A program made the translations under genes and the position numbers. From the IMG/VR virus record IMGVR_UViG_3300006919_000146, positions 1 to 38,572 of that record: a DNA stretch of 38,572 nt; one strand, 5' to 3'. Positions within the stretch are counted from its first letter, which is position 1; every line of letters begins with the position of its first letter. Positions 10,782-35,238 of this stretch are shown in pieces. The DNA comes from a virus. The notes under the pieces are model-generated. The model made no database searches. It saw only the letters and a list, made by a program, of their open reading frames with translations, and was not told the DNA's origin.

Positions 10782-11434
10782 TGGTGAGTGTGGCGGTTTG
10801 CGTTCCTTCGCAAGAGAATATCGGAACGATGTTTGTTAATGATCTGGTGGCCATGATTGGCTGGCACATGAGGAACACTGACGACGATGTGTCCATGTTC
10901 TTCAATTACGGGGCAAGCATTGCTGAGTTGCGCCAGGACATCACTTTGGCGGCAATGGGTGAGGATCCTGATTTTATCCTTTTCCTCAATCCTGACATGC
11001 GCTTCCCCCACGACACGTTGAAGAGGCTTCTTGAGCACGACAAAGATATTGTCGCGGCTAATTATGTCACGAACACCGTACCTATAATGCCGGTGGCCAC
11101 GCAGGTGGAGACGCTGGCCCCTTTGTACACCGATGCGGATGCAGAGGGCTTGGAACAGGCGGCTGGTGTTGGTATGGGTGTAATGCTCGTTAAGGGGGGA
11201 GTCATCAAGGCACTCGACGACCCCCTCTTCATCGTGGGCTATTCTCCCAACAGCAAAACATTCCAAGATGCCGAGACATTCTTCTGCCGCAAGGCGCAGA
11301 TGGCAGGCTTCGGCATCTATGTTGATCACGGCCTGTCTCAGGCCGTTGCTCATATAGGCGGTATCGAGTACACTAATGCGCATGGTCAAGCGGTTCGGGA
11401 GGCCCTTGGAACAAACGCCCTAGCAGCGGAGTAG
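10781..11434 (+). CDS. GT-A-type glycosyltransferase family 2-like protein
   Basis: This 217-residue protein resembles phage-encoded GT2-like sugar transferases. It starts with a Rossmann-like strand (VSVAVCVPS). Residues 64-75 (DFILFLNPDMRF) occupy the position of the metal-binding DxD motif, here NPD, and FPHDTLKRLLEHDKDIVAAN follows as in the family. The C-terminal part has DAETFFCRKAQMAGFGIYVD and a His in AVAHIGG, matching the acceptor/catalytic end of these enzymes. The substrate is unknown: modified phage DNA, capsid decoration or host surface glycans are all possible. It sits between capsid and adaptor genes with tight spacing, so it is expressed late with the virion proteins. Confidence 0.72.
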   Translation: MVSVAVCVPSQENIGTMFVNDLVAMIGWHMRNTDDDVSMFFNYGASIAELRQDITLAAMGEDPDFILFLNPDMRFPHDTLKRLLEHDKDIVAANYVTNTVPIMPVATQVETLAPLYTDADAEGLEQAAGVGMGVMLVKGGVIKALDDPLFIVGYSPNSKTFQDAETFFCRKAQMAGFGIYVDHGLSQAVAHIGGIEYTNAHGQAVREALGTNALAAE

Positions 11435-11438
11435 GCTA

Positions 11439-12083
11439 ATGACGGCAATCACTAATTTCTCGACCCTGAAAACGTCAATCGAAGACACCCTGGGGCGAAG
11501 CGACCTGACATCGCAGCTTGAGGGTTTTATCTCCCAGGCCGAGGCCCGTTTCAGTCGGACCATTCGTGGCCGTGATATGGAGGCGACCTACGCGCTGTCG
11601 CTGAATGCAGATGGTGAGGCGACGTTGCCTTCTGACTTCCTGGAAATGAAATCTATCTCATGCGCCACAACGCCGGTCAGCTGGCCTGAGCTGGTGGACA
11701 TGGACAGCGACGAATTCCTATTCCGGCATCGGCCAAATGCTAATCCGCAGTATGTGGGGATTAGTGGCACGACAATTATTGTTCGCCCTGCGGCCAATGT
11801 TTCTGCCACCCTGTATTATTACCAGCGCGTCCCGGCCCTGACATCGCTCAACACGACGAACTGGTTGGTCACAGATGCGCCGGATGTGTACCTGTATGGA
11901 TCCTGCCTGGAGGCGGCTATCTATCTGCGTGATATGGAGCGCATCCAGATGTACAGCGAGATGCTGACCACTGCCATTGACGAACTGACCGGTGAGCGCC
12001 GTGCAGATCGCGCAAATCGCCCAGCTGATGCCCCTATGGCCCCCGGCGGGCGCACCCTTGAGAGCGCAGGTCCGCGAGCGTAG
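11439..12083 (+). CDS. Head-tail adaptor protein, copy 1
   Basis: This 214-residue protein has the pattern of phage adaptors that dock under the portal. It has an N-terminal helix pair (FSTLKTSIEDTLGRSDLTSQ, EGFISQAEARFSRTIRGRDM), a central beta region (LPSDFLEMKSISC, ATLYYYQRVPALTS) and a C-terminal helical region (YLYGSCLEAAIYLRDMERIQ). The last ~25 residues are Pro/Ala-rich and probably extended. It shares a clear core with the next gene (LxYYxR..AL....TNWLV......Y..G), so the two are paralogues. GGAGTAGGC provides the ribosome site. Confidence 0.8.
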   Translation: MTAITNFSTLKTSIEDTLGRSDLTSQLEGFISQAEARFSRTIRGRDMEATYALSLNADGEATLPSDFLEMKSISCATTPVSWPELVDMDSDEFLFRHRPNANPQYVGISGTTIIVRPAANVSATLYYYQRVPALTSLNTTNWLVTDAPDVYLYGSCLEAAIYLRDMERIQMYSEMLTTAIDELTGERRADRANRPADAPMAPGGRTLESAGPRA

Positions 12084-27475: not shown

Positions 27476-28159
27476 ATGGCTTTTATGCAAACAGCAAGTG
27501 GCGACGGCGGTGGGTTCAACACCTACGTTAAGTACAACGCAAAGGCTGGTCGCTGGTACACCAAGCGCGACGACAGCACGGACGCAACCGAGATGGAGGT
27601 GGCGGACATGACCGCCGTCATCGACCTGGAGAACATCCAGACGGGGTGGTTCTTGTTTGAGGCGGGTGTTGCCCCCAGCCGGGTCATCGACCCTGCGCCG
27701 GGTGTACCCACGCCCAAGCCGGGTGATCGGTTTAAGAAGGGCTTTCAGTGCCTTTTCTATAGCCCGATGAACTTTCCCAGCGAGGGCCTGCGCGAATTCG
27801 CCACAACCGCCAACGCCGTGATTGAGGCATTCAACGCCCTGCACGACGATTACATGAAGGCACCGCAGAAGGGCAATGGCCAGCTGCCGGTGGTCCGTTG
27901 CACTGGCGTTAACCCGATCACATCTAAGCACGGGACGAACTATCAGCCCGTTCTGGAGATCGTTGATTGGGCCGACCGGCCAGAGGTTCTGGCCAATGCC
28001 ACGATGGAAGGGTCTACCCAGGCAGCACCAGCTGCTCCGACTGAGCCCACAGCCCCTGCTCCTGTAGCAGCGCCCGCCCCGGCCCCCGCGCCGGAACAAG
28101 CCCCGGTTGCTGCTGATCCCGCCCCGGCTGCCCCGGCTGCAGGCGGTAATCTGTTCTAG
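27476..28159 (+). CDS. Probable single-stranded DNA-binding protein
   Basis: This 227-residue protein has a ~175-residue beta-rich N-terminal domain (FNTYVKYNAKAGRWYTKRDD; IQTGWFLFEAGVAPSRVI; VRCTGVNPITSKHGTNYQPV) and a low-complexity Ala/Pro tail (~180-220) ending GGNLF. I recall related proteins beginning MAFMQTA...YVKYNAKAGRWY in replication modules of other phages, annotated as ssDNA-binding or hypothetical. The domain plan resembles an OB-fold core with a disordered linker and short C-terminal tip. Its place between a recombination nuclease and the primase-helicase supports this. GAAGAGGAAAATAG provides the ribosome site. It lies between two terminators, so it may have its own expression level. 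Confidence 0.68.
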   Translation: MAFMQTASGDGGGFNTYVKYNAKAGRWYTKRDDSTDATEMEVADMTAVIDLENIQTGWFLFEAGVAPSRVIDPAPGVPTPKPGDRFKKGFQCLFYSPMNFPSEGLREFATTANAVIEAFNALHDDYMKAPQKGNGQLPVVRCTGVNPITSKHGTNYQPVLEIVDWADRPEVLANATMEGSTQAAPAAPTEPTAPAPVAAPAPAPAPEQAPVAADPAPAAPAAGGNLF

Positions 28160-28252: not shown

Positions 28253-30409
28253 ATGCCAATAGCAGTACAGGGTGCAATGGATCCTAATCAGGACACCATG
28301 CTGGAGCACCTCACGCATCACTTCTGCTCTGACCTGGAAGGCCAGGTCGAGATCAGGATCATCAAGCCCAAGGGGGCGGTCTATTCAAAATTATTTAGCC
28401 TTGATGAACTGGAAGAGGCAGCAGCCCACGCCTGCGAGATGAACCAGCGCGGGTTCAATATTTACTTCGGTGCTGTGTTGCGCCGGGAAAGCCTAGAGAG
28501 CGGCGAGCATGGCATGGATGATGATTGCCTGGGTGCTCGCATGCTCTGGCTCGACATCGACGATGATGGCGTAGCAGAAACCGCTGCGCAGGAACTAAGG
28601 GGGCAGGGCATCACACCGGCCTACACAGTGGTGACGGGGCGCACCCCGCACACCAGGGTGCAGATGTTCTTTGAAGTGGACGAGCCCATCACAGACAGTC
28701 AGCAGATCGCTGAGATGAACCAAGCGCTGGCAGAACGCTTTAGCGGTGACCCGGTGGTGTTCAATGTTGGCAGGATTATGCGGCTGGGCGGTGCCATTGC
28801 ATGGCCAGGTAAGGAAGGGCGGGTCAAAGAGCTGACAGAATTCCACCCGCAGCAGGTTGATCCGATGCCATTGACCGCACTGGTTAACCAATTATCCCTA
28901 ACAGAGGCGCTAGAACGTGCAGTAGAGCGGCGAAACACCTATGAGGGGGGTCAGGGTATTACTAAAGAGCCTGCCGGCCTTCTGGGTGGCGCTGAGACGG
29001 TCGTAGATGGCCGAGAAGAGTACATGCGGAACTGTGTGATGGCTGCCTTCATTGAGGCGTTTGGCACGGCAGAGGCTGGTCAGGCCGTCACAGAGCAGAC
29101 CATCTTCGACCTGGCGTGGCCAGTCTTTGAGCAAACAGCCGACATGAGCCGCCCTGGCCACAACACCCAGAGAGAGATGCATGCCAAGTGCTCGAAGATC
29201 CTCAGACGGTTCCAGGAAGGCAAACTAAAAGACTTCAAGACCCAGGATGACATCGTCAAAACATGGGAAGCGAAGCAGGAGCTGGCGCACATCCCGCCCA
29301 AGGTTGTGGTCGAAAATATACCCGCAAGGGTTGAAGAAGTGCTCACAACGGCCCGACGTTTTCCCTTAGCATATAGCGGTGATGTCAGGGATGTTGTGCG
29401 GGTTGATCAACTTGTTCATGGGCTGCTGGTACAGGGCACCACGAGCGTGGTCTACGGGGATAGTAATGTCGGTAAGTCCTTCTGGGCTATCGACCTGGCG
29501 TACTGCGTGGCGACCGGCAGACCCTGGAACGGTGCCAAGGTCAAACAGAAGGGCGTGGTGTATGTCAGCATGGAGGGTGGCCAGACCACCAAGAACAGGA
29601 TGCTGGCCTATAAAAAGGCGCACCCGTTCCAGGGTGAGGCTCACTTTGCCCTGATTCCCGCAGCGGTAAACCTGTTCGACAGCGAGGATGACATCGCAAC
29701 GCTGGTGGCAACCATGCAGGACGCAGCCAACCACATGGGGGTTGAGGTGGGCCTGATCGTCGTCGATACGCTGGCTAGGGCTATGGCAGGGGGCAATGAG
29801 AACACATCAGAGGATATGGGGCTCCTAATCCGCAATATTGACGCCCTGGCGGCCCTTACAGAGGCGCATGTGATGCTGGTACACCACACCGGCAAGGACA
29901 AGACGAGAGGGGCCAGAGGCTCATCAGCCCTCAGAGCAGCAACCGACACCGAGATCCAGCTGGAAAAGATTGAAGGCACGAACATCACAACGGTCACTGT
30001 GACCAAGCAAAGAGACCTGGAGGGTGGCCAGTCTTACAATTTTAAACTTATGGTCACAGAGGTGGGCAACGACACCGACGGGGATCCAATCACAAGCTGC
30101 TATGTCGAGCTGGACGACACCGACTATTCACCAGCCAAACAACGCCTGACAACGCTCGAAGGTATGGCCTGGAATAAGGTCAAGGAGTGTTTCCAGAACA
30201 ACGCTGAAATGCGCACGGTAATGGCCGATATGCCACCCCAAAGCGCATGTTCGATAGATTTGGTCAGAAAAACACTGCGTGGCAGAGGCGTTACAGAGAA
30301 GGATAACGACAATACAGAGCGCAGCCAGTGGAAGCGGATCCGCGAAGGTCTTGTAAATAAAGGATATATTGAGATCAACGGGGACTATATGTGGCTGGTG
30401 GATGACTAG
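28253..30409 (+). CDS. Primase-helicase (AEP-like primase plus RepA-type AAA/RecA helicase)
   Basis: This 718-residue protein probably primes and unwinds phage DNA. In the N-terminal ~250 residues, WLDIDDDG at ~99-106, HTRVQMFFEV at ~133-142 and VGRIMRLGGAIAWPG at ~171-185 resemble the acid and basic motifs of archaeo-eukaryotic-type primases. The helicase domain has Walker A GDSNVGKS at ~402-409, a strand-acid VVYVSMEGG at ~426-434, Walker B GLIVVDTLAR at ~500-509 and motif LVHHTGKDKTRGARGSS at ~541-557, all as in RepA/AAA_25-type hexameric helicases. The last ~75 residues look like a winged helix. AGGAATAATA provides the ribosome site. It is the only replication enzyme of this size; no DNA polymerase is present, so host polymerase is presumably used. 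Confidence 0.87.
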   Translation: MPIAVQGAMDPNQDTMLEHLTHHFCSDLEGQVEIRIIKPKGAVYSKLFSLDELEEAAAHACEMNQRGFNIYFGAVLRRESLESGEHGMDDDCLGARMLWLDIDDDGVAETAAQELRGQGITPAYTVVTGRTPHTRVQMFFEVDEPITDSQQIAEMNQALAERFSGDPVVFNVGRIMRLGGAIAWPGKEGRVKELTEFHPQQVDPMPLTALVNQLSLTEALERAVERRNTYEGGQGITKEPAGLLGGAETVVDGREEYMRNCVMAAFIEAFGTAEAGQAVTEQTIFDLAWPVFEQTADMSRPGHNTQREMHAKCSKILRRFQEGKLKDFKTQDDIVKTWEAKQELAHIPPKVVVENIPARVEEVLTTARRFPLAYSGDVRDVVRVDQLVHGLLVQGTTSVVYGDSNVGKSFWAIDLAYCVATGRPWNGAKVKQKGVVYVSMEGGQTTKNRMLAYKKAHPFQGEAHFALIPAAVNLFDSEDDIATLVATMQDAANHMGVEVGLIVVDTLARAMAGGNENTSEDMGLLIRNIDALAALTEAHVMLVHHTGKDKTRGARGSSALRAATDTEIQLEKIEGTNITTVTVTKQRDLEGGQSYNFKLMVTEVGNDTDGDPITSCYVELDDTDYSPAKQRLTTLEGMAWNKVKECFQNNAEMRTVMADMPPQSACSIDLVRKTLRGRGVTEKDNDNTERSQWKRIREGLVNKGYIEINGDYMWLVDD

Positions 30410-30521
30410 CGTTGCATTCGCGTTGCATTGGCGTTGCAGATGCAACGTCAGTCCCCGACCGCGTTGCATTCATTTGGGGGGGGTTCCCCCTTTAGGGGGG
30501 AACCCCCCAAAAATGCAACGC
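30409..30521. repeat. Iteron-like GCGTTGCATT repeats with central hairpin (origin candidate)
   Basis: Direct copies of GCGTTGCA(TT) begin at 30409, 30420, 30431 and 30461; the first three are exactly 11 bp apart. Inverted copies lie at 30441-30447 (TGCAACG, making a CGTTGCA-GA-TGCAACG palindrome) and 30512-30521 (AATGCAACGC). Between the last two units is a long G/C hairpin (30474-30510). The array starts at the stop codon of the primase-helicase gene. Spacing near one helical turn is typical of iterons bound by initiators or regulators. Confidence 0.75.
30474..30510 (+). terminator. Long G/C hairpin within the repeat cluster
   Basis: TTGGGGGGGG-TTCCCCC and GGGGGG-AACCCCCCAA face each other across a TTTA loop, giving ~15 pairs with one bulged G. 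No T-run follows on the plus strand. It could be a cruciform element of an origin or a strong RNA structure before the last early gene. Confidence 0.5.
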
Positions 30522-30571
30522 AGGGAGACCGCGCGAGGTTTTTGGTAGAGAAAACAGGAAAGGGAAACAGG

Positions 30572-31075
30572 ATGGCAAATGGTAAGGCGATGACCTACTT
30601 GGATCAGGTGGCGCATGAGATGGAGGTCAAGTGGGGCGAGGGGCGATTGCAGAAGCTGGTAACGCCAGCACTGGCTGACCGGTTCAAGGCGCAGCAAGAG
30701 ATACTCGACGGGGCTATCAGTGCGGGCGATGCCAAGGCGATTGATCAGGCAGCTGCCGCAACAGCCAGGGCATGGCAGGTGCTGGACGGTGAGGCGGCGA
30801 TGAAGGGATGCCTGCCAATCAATCAGCTGGTGTGGAAGGGAACAACGCCGTCAGGCAGGAAGGTGATCATCCTTCGGGAGAGCAGCGCGATTAGACACGC
30901 CGACGAGATGGAGGGCGACCTGGTGTTGACGATGGATGAGGTGATGACCCTCATCGATGGGTTCCCCGAGACCGTGCTGGAGGTGAAGGCGACTTTCAAG
31001 GCGGCTGAGGTCACAGCTGTTTTGGGGAAGCCAGAGGAGATTGATTGGGAGATAGGGGATGAAATACCCTTCTAG
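30572..31075 (+). CDS. Early protein with SSB-like acidic C-terminal tail
   Basis: This 167-residue protein starts at the ATG at 30572 behind AAAGGGAAACAGG; upstream in-frame codons would translate the repeat cluster and are rejected. The N-terminal ~70 residues are helical (YLDQVAHEMEVKWGEGRLQK; FKAQQEILDGAISAGDAKAI), then a beta-containing part (GRKVIILRESSAIRHA; DLVLTMDEVMTLIDGF). The end, EIDWEIGDEIPF, closely resembles the DDDIPF tip by which bacterial SSB recruits partner proteins. This suggests that it docks to host SSB-binding proteins at the fork. It is the last gene of the rightward operon. Family not recognised. Confidence 0.72.
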   Translation: MANGKAMTYLDQVAHEMEVKWGEGRLQKLVTPALADRFKAQQEILDGAISAGDAKAIDQAAAATARAWQVLDGEAAMKGCLPINQLVWKGTTPSGRKVIILRESSAIRHADEMEGDLVLTMDEVMTLIDGFPETVLEVKATFKAAEVTAVLGKPEEIDWEIGDEIPF

Positions 31076-34665: not shown

Positions 34666-35238
34666 TTAAACAGCCCAGCCGCGAGCAATCGCCCCGGCTT
34701 CAATTGCATCCAGTTTTGCGATACGTTCAGCCAGAACAGGTGTTGGATGACTGGTTCCCTTGCCTGTCTCGTAATATTCCCGCGCCTCTGCCATCGTCCA
34801 CCACTGGCACCCTGCCTTCACCCGGATGCCATAATGGTGACTTACAGCAAAGAATTCGTGATGGTCAATCGTGCATCCGGCAGAGAAAATGCCTCTGGCC
34901 CCGCGCAGATTGGCCCGGAGAAGATTGGCCCCGTGAAGATTGGCCCCGTGAAGATTGGCCCCGTGCAGATCGGCCTCGTACAGATCGGCCTCGTACAGAT
35001 CGGCCTCGTACAGATCGACCCCGCGCAGATCGGCCCCGTGCAGATCGGCCCCGTGCAGATCGGCCCGGGGCCGATCGGCCTCGTACAGATCGGCCTCGTA
35101 CAGATCGGCCTCGTACAGATTGGCCCGGAGCAGATCGGCCCCGCGCAGATCGACCCCGCGCAGATCGGCCCCGCGCAGAGTGTCCGAGCCCACTGTATGC
35201 AGCACCTCGCCGGTTTCTTTGTGTTTGATTTCAATCAT
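34666..35238 (-). CDS. Pentapeptide-repeat protein
   Basis: This 190-residue protein has about 20 consecutive A(D/N)LxE/A(D/N)LHG/A(D/N)LRG pentapeptides from residue ~20 to ~112, enough for about five coils of a right-handed quadrilateral beta-helix. A non-repeat C-terminal domain follows (~115-190, GCTIDHHEFFAVSHHYGIRV; WWTMAEAREYYETGKG). Known pentapeptide-repeat proteins such as Qnr and MfpA mimic DNA and bind gyrase; whether this one does is unknown. The second domain is of a kind I have seen attached to pentapeptide repeats in phage proteins. Codons within the repeats are nearly identical. Its start overlaps the preceding stop. Confidence 0.88.
   Translation of the reverse strand: MIEIKHKETGEVLHTVGSDTLRGADLRGVDLRGADLLRANLYEADLYEADLYEADRPRADLHGADLHGADLRGVDLYEADLYEADLYEADLHGANLHGANLHGANLLRANLRGARGIFSAGCTIDHHEFFAVSHHYGIRVKAGCQWWTMAEAREYYETGKGTSHPTPVLAERIAKLDAIEAGAIARGWAV
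34903..35178 (-). repeat. 15-bp tandem repeats encoding pentapeptides
   Basis: About 18 units of 15 bp in three main variants (on the plus strand CAGATCGGCCTCGTA, CAGATCGGCCCCGTG and CAGATCGGCCCCGCG). Blocks of identical units suggest recent expansion. Stops are absent in several frames here, which creates spurious open frames on both strands. Confidence 0.9.

Follow-up and report, generated by a model that had tools for sequence, protein, structure and literature searches.

Which role should be attributed to a 113-bp cluster of short repeats that directly follows a primase-helicase gene in the genome of an environmental virus? The window analysed here, a virus contig of 38,572 bases (IMG/VR record IMGVR_UViG_3300006919_000146), carries such an array, for which the first-pass annotation had considered either a replication origin or an operator for the small protein encoded next. 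The terminase, portal, scaffold and capsid proteins of the window match phage families, its portal being kin to the portals of phiM5 and PaP3-type podoviruses, and we regard the window phage as marine-type. Its early region codes for a RuvC-like resolvase, a PD-(D/E)XK-type nuclease, a probable single-stranded DNA-binding protein (SSB), the primase-helicase and a protein of 167 amino acids (aa).

The array and the gene in front of it

The genes and protein parts relevant to the array are:

27476-28159, + strand: gene in front of the helicase gene; by position, its 227-aa product is a probable ssDNA-binding protein
28253-30409, + strand: 718-aa primase-helicase, the proposed initiator (Pfam matches and matches to RSF1010 RepA/RepB')
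30143-30406, + strand: C-terminal winged helix of the primase-helicase (aa ~631-718), the proposed iteron reader (AlphaFold2 model and covariation in relatives)
30308-30358, + strand: coding sequence of helix 58-74 in the domain model, proposed as the recognition helix (aa 686-702)
30572-31075, + strand: 167-aa gene, the downstream neighbour, whose product is not a likely binder of the array (downstream proteins without covariation with the unit)

The 227-aa protein has no Pfam match and is considered a probable SSB because the position of its gene matches that of an annotated “ssDNA-binding protein” in the Roseobacter phages CRP-811 and CRP-821. Profile scans of the early proteins detected neither a DNA-binding family in the 167-aa protein nor any RepC-like iteron-binding protein. 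The 167-aa protein ends in an acidic, SSB-like tail (...EIGDEIPF), and some helicases of the L041/L064 cluster end in ...EADAPF; by analogy, these tails may recruit the same host partners.

The helicase domain of the primase-helicase (aa 383-549) is of the AAA_25, RSF1010 RepA-like type (Pfam E 6e-39). RSF1010 RepA is also its closest relative of solved structure by sequence (1g8y, E 0.003) and a match of the structure model (1olo, Foldseek E 1.9e-5, TMt 0.60). The primase part matches Pfam RepB_primase with an E-value of 1.9e-4, under the curated cut-off, and the RSF1010 primase RepB' (3h20) at a Foldseek E of 7.6e-5, on a poorly modelled N-terminus; Pfam found no Toprim domain in the protein. 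The AlphaFold2 model of aa 629-718 is a winged helix (pLDDT 92.6), the PDB matches of which have weak E-values and include winged helices of CRP-type, MCM and Rpa2.

The final G of the helicase stop codon (TAG, 30407-30409) is also the first base of the array, whose end is separated from the ATG of the 167-aa gene (30572) by 50 bp. It is composed of:

30409-30438, + strand: three direct units GCGTTGCA at an 11-bp period (30409, 30420, 30431)
30441-30448, - strand: inverted unit ACGTTGCA, one mismatch
30461-30468, + strand: fourth direct unit GCGTTGCA, the left outer arm of the palindrome
30461-30521: 61-bp palindrome consisting of unit, G/C stem, CCCCCTTTAGGGGG at the centre, stem and inverted unit
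30489-30496: dyad core CCTTTAGG, of the CCTWTARG class, which recurs in clusters of relatives
30514-30521, - strand: perfect inverted unit, the right outer arm of the palindrome

The four direct units and the 11-bp period of three of them had been correctly described in the first-pass annotation, as had the existence of two inverted ones. The description as partial does not hold for the copy at 30514-30521, which is perfect, AATGCAACGC being a full 10-mer; the other inverted copy matches at seven of eight positions. Likewise, the hairpin announced as some 15 bp of G/C is real but larger, with arms (30471-30490 and 30496-30515) that are 90% complementary. The whole stretch 30461-30521 folds as a single hairpin whose outer stem is the pair of inverted units, with a DNA folding dG of -30.8 kcal/mol versus -12.9 in shuffles (z -7.6) and a palindrome dyad score of 14 versus at most 7 in shuffles. 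Six copies of the unit, counted as a 7-mer, occur in 113 bp, a number reached in none of 5000 dinucleotide shuffles (maximum 3), and the 9-mer GCGTTGCAT is unique to the array within the whole record. A longer, TTG-started version of the 167-aa frame (30428) would span the array. Nevertheless, homologues of the 167-aa protein start beyond it, and we therefore take the array as non-coding, in line with its initial placement outside any gene. Rfam matches were below gathering scores and were dismissed as hairpin noise, and an IHF-type site is absent from the array. GC skew, initially suggested as a check, tracks gene strand and is uninformative on the origin.

Arrays behind related helicase genes

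Single-protein IMG/VR scans with the helicase and with another window protein retrieved no relatives, nor did the hairpin core used as a search pattern. An exact search for the GCGTTGCA unit pair gave 14 contigs, which were rejected as relatives: those inspected have the pair in other kinds of genes. Arrays of GCGTTGCATTNGCGTTGCA were seen inside replisome-organiser-like genes (L006:10130-10260, L007:1913, L013:3695, L014:741 and contigs near-identical to L007), with a linker ...QRNGFATQMQRTE... and beside a CT-rich tract; the same unit may thus belong to an origin located within the gene of another class of initiator. An alignment-based IMG/VR scan yielded 438 relatives, of which the best 80 were used.

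The unit GCGTTGCA was not found in any phage with a related helicase. The search for the repeat in relatives, proposed at the outset as a means of refutation, thus had a double outcome: the sequence is missing but the architecture is kept with another unit, so that the missing sequence does not refute an origin. Contig L019, reached via the 167-aa protein, has the same gene order as the window and, at the same place, an array with the unit GTGACAT and a G/C hairpin. The order SSB, helicase, array and 167-aa-like gene is also that of CRP-821 (unit GTATAAA, array near 3.4 kb of its record) and CRP-811 (unit CTACAAA, array near 4.4 kb), both with the core CCCTTTAGGG. Rhizobium phage 16-3 has GCGTGACA and CTCCTTTAGGAG behind the helicase and a hairpin followed by TTTT, and Salicola phage CGphi29 has the unit GGGGACA and CCCTGTAGGG. 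Arrays follow this gene in Dhillonvirus phages too, including Sodalis phage SO-1 (L127), where, besides the array behind the helicase (11214-11597), a second one of the same unit, GCGGGAC, lies 29 kb off among tail genes (40178-40657); such paired arrays of one unit are reminiscent of the ori-plus-crr arrangement of P4. Looser arrays stand behind the helicase in BcepGomr, Lumpael and Sortsne. The helicase gene is also followed by arrays in L119, L121 and L123, elements recorded as plasmids that carry capsid or terminase genes. In two of these, E. coli p1RM9154-C1 (L119) and Klebsiella pKp_Goe_795-4 (L123), capsid genes accompany a RepA-type helicase with its own array, and they look like phage satellites.

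Not every relative conforms. No array was found behind the helicase gene in the two actinophage relatives read, nor in L032 (L032:3867-6020), which has the closest helicase among the relatives listed (45% identity) and an XRE-type regulator after the gene; its origin would therefore lie elsewhere or be of another kind. Among the nearest portal relatives, the RepA gene of MW202711 is followed by no comparable array, the array of MW202879 is of a looser, GGAGATAC-type kind, and MW202496 and Sinorhizobium phiM5 have other replication proteins. Across the window, L019 and L032-L102, the primase module at the N-terminus varies between Toprim, Prim-Pol and RepB-like types, the AAA_25 domain and the downstream array remaining constant. 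From this we infer that the array is linked to the helicase and winged-helix portion of the protein.

These arrays were counted on 86 loci clustered at 85% identity into 29 groups, with one locus tested per group. Within the 250 bp that follow the helicase stop, 23 of the 29 helicase clusters repeat some 7-mer four times or more, each cluster having its own unit; elsewhere in these loci, 15 of 1963 windows of 250 bp do so. Some of the groups scored negative do have arrays, but of a looser kind or shifted in position (L035, L070). The spacing between neighbouring copies on one strand is mostly 9-11 bp, roughly a turn of the helix. Only two control windows had a 7-mer at least five times, both in the pentapeptide-repeat protein gene of the window (34666-35238, - strand). 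Apart from the array, this gene alone is strongly repetitive in the window, and CRP-811 has a pentapeptide-repeat protein gene as well. The core CCTWTARG was present in 17 of 29 clusters and in 11 of 991 control windows (1.1%). The downstream proteins form about ten groups, of which the 167-aa family is the commonest (26 loci in six helicase clusters), and arrays also occur beside at least nine groups other than this family. A conserved element of the AATCAATGGGTTA type, matching the IHF consensus on the + strand just past the helicase stop, was observed in L045, L041, L101, L044, L092, L102 and L028; IHF-type elements occur in 6 of 29 clusters versus 1.4% of control windows. DnaA boxes were not enriched at the level of the 29 clusters.

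Predictions for array and core were written down before an out-of-sample set of bacterial genomes was searched by means of a gammaproteobacterial alignment. The array was found there in 13 of 23 clusters versus 8 of 521 control windows (1.5%). By contrast, the prediction of the core failed (1 of 23 clusters), and we rejected CCTWTARG as a universal feature. The array thus generalises, and the palindrome core is confined to part of the family. In many of the out-of-sample arrays the inverted units flank an A/T element (TATATA, for example), a pattern seen post hoc.

Unit, winged helix and the rival readings

Comparison of these loci shows that, at the level of sequence, the array and the helicase gene stay together and the unit and the winged helix change together. 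Repeated changes of the unit are seen inside clusters whose helicases are nearly identical; one such cluster contains TACGAT, CTATAAA, CTTATAA, TACATAT and CTACAAA. With the helicase core held constant, similarity of the unit and of the winged helix are correlated (partial r 0.82), a value attained in 0 of 2000 within-cluster permutations, which take loci within a cluster as exchangeable, several contigs being near-duplicates. The downstream protein gave a partial r of 0.11 with the unit (629 of 2000 permutations). Among pairs with cores at least 95% identical, the winged helix is 95% identical when the unit is the same and 68% when it differs. The 28 same-unit pairs have 98% identical cores and 95% identical winged helices, and the twelve closest different-unit pairs, some of them non-independent, 96% and 69%, respectively. 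In cluster 2 the loss of identity is mostly found within the C-terminal 75-105 residues; in cluster 0 the unit classes show some divergence in further regions of the protein as well. In the out-of-sample set, a global partial Mantel test of unit against winged helix was not significant (0.06; 127/1000), and winged helices of close pairs were 48% identical with different units versus 86% with the same unit.

The columns linked to the unit lie in the recognition helix and the helix before it, with a few in the wing and flanks, and the proposed recognition helix of the window (aa 686-702) overlaps columns that change with the unit in relatives. The CTACAAA lineages CRP-811 and L110 have A and G at positions where CRP-821, L056 and L067, with TATAA-type units, carry S and N. 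One unit difference is thus accompanied by identical helix differences (S/A, N/G) in two comparisons, CRP-821 with CRP-811 and L056/L067 with L110. Domain recombination could be an alternative source of this shared pattern. These comparisons support a role of the winged helix in the specificity of unit binding, the covariation being established in relatives and the window having no close relative to compare.

The initial view of the array as an origin candidate tied to the primase-helicase is strengthened by the conserved position and architecture and by the covariation of unit and winged helix. Very probably, the 113-bp array is the replication origin of the phage, and the primase-helicase encoded just upstream recognises it by its C-terminal winged helix. 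It is improbable, in our opinion, that this winged helix binds the array as an autoregulatory operator that controls the operon, through its own or the downstream gene, with the origin located elsewhere. The covariation speaks for binding, not for replication, and the array does lie between two co-directed genes. However, arrays stand 3' of the helicase gene in diverse phages, followed by about ten unrelated downstream groups, which would be odd for a shared operator; in SO-1 the tail-gene region harbours another array with the same unit; a search of 30200-30800 gave no sigma-70-like promoter; and the studied analogues of this layout are origins or putative origins. Decidedly unlikely, too, is that the hairpin serves to terminate transcription or to stabilise the mRNA where the helicase gene ends, the repeats being incidental. 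A strong GC hairpin does follow the stop codon, and the one of phage 16-3 precedes a run of T, but the window hairpin is followed by AAAA, no terminator-like match was found on its + strand, and the units, their helical spacing and the covariation would be left unexplained. Very unlikely indeed is the other reading of the first-pass annotation, an operator for the 167-aa protein, which is disfavoured despite the frequency of this family behind the helicase: the downstream protein does not covary with the unit, arrays persist beside the other groups of neighbours, and the 167-aa protein belongs to no DNA-binding family detected. The comparison across clusters already refutes chance and simple repeat expansion; their probability is negligible, as slippage can produce short units but not inverted copies, the shuffles never attained the observed copy number, and position and architecture are conserved with different units in most clusters.

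A proposed self-reading initiator and its known counterparts

Under the preferred reading of the array as an origin, several primase-helicase subunits would dock on the tandem and inverted units and seed the assembly of hexameric rings at the dyad, where the A/T centre of the palindrome (TTTA/TATA) might melt or extrude. The primase-helicase would load itself without a separate loader, its fused primase would start synthesis at the palindrome, and the SSB-like protein encoded upstream would keep the strands apart. More broadly, we lean towards the existence of a large class, hitherto undescribed, of phage and satellite initiators that resemble RSF1010 but consist of one polypeptide and each have their own origin “address” behind the gene; address and reader, the latter being the recognition helix of the winged helix, would co-switch fast among near-identical phages, following a partly readable residue-to-base code and keeping the origins of co-infecting relatives separate. 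Such natural covariation ties a putative replication specificity domain to its DNA target and gives a clue to the means by which close relatives among phages and satellites would replicate separately. Our results also offer a sequence-only rule to find the origins of environmental phages: to look behind RepA-type primase-helicase genes for an array of short units, often with a CCTWTARG palindrome.

The principle of an initiator helicase with a C-terminal reader and a downstream origin is already known. In the open-access literature, subscription papers being mostly outside our search, we found it undescribed for RecA-fold RepA-type phage primase-helicases, and the same applies to co-switching. 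In SO-1 (GenBank GQ502199), direct, inverted and palindromic repeats (regions A and B) are annotated, the first of them immediately behind the replicative helicase/primase gene, as in the window, but with seven copies of GCGGGAC and two regions per genome; a function is suggested for them in the GenBank note on these repeats. SaPI Rep and SCCmec Cch2 bind, by their C-terminal domain, iterons directly downstream of their own gene (PMC7581432), and the window array is likewise directly 3' of an initiator-type helicase gene. However, their helicases are of the DUF927 or D5/Primase_Cterm types whereas that of the window is RecA-fold and RSF1010 RepA-like, so that the window system would work like SaPI Rep/ori without being a member of it; the palindrome with its recurrent core is an additional element of the window family. 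In the plasmid pRN1, ORF904 combines primase, helicase and C-terminal winged helix in one polypeptide, and a stem-loop downstream of orf904, different in sequence between related plasmids, is needed for replication, the origin being just downstream of the gene (PMC4234260). The window shares with it, and with phage BIP-1, a stem-loop behind a primase-helicase-winged-helix gene, but pRN1 has an SF3 helicase and no iterons whereas the window has iterons plus stem-loop and a RecA-fold AAA_25 helicase. The alpha protein of phage P4 is also a primase-helicase whose winged helix binds origin repeats (PMC4234260), although with a Toprim primase, which some relatives of the window protein carry, instead of a RepB'-like one. 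Finally, in RSF1010 (IncQ), iterons are bound by RepC, and priming by RepB' takes place at stem-loops exposed as RepA unwinds the DNA (PMC4234260). The window has the RepA-type helicase fold, a putative RepB'-type primase fold, iterons and one stem-loop, but in a single chain in place of three separate polypeptides with RepC for the iterons. One polypeptide would thereby unite iteron binding, unwinding and stem-loop priming, with its target directly behind its own gene. It is this combination of the RSF1010, SaPI Rep/Cch2 and pRN1 layouts in the window that leads us to propose an origin with a self-binding initiator.
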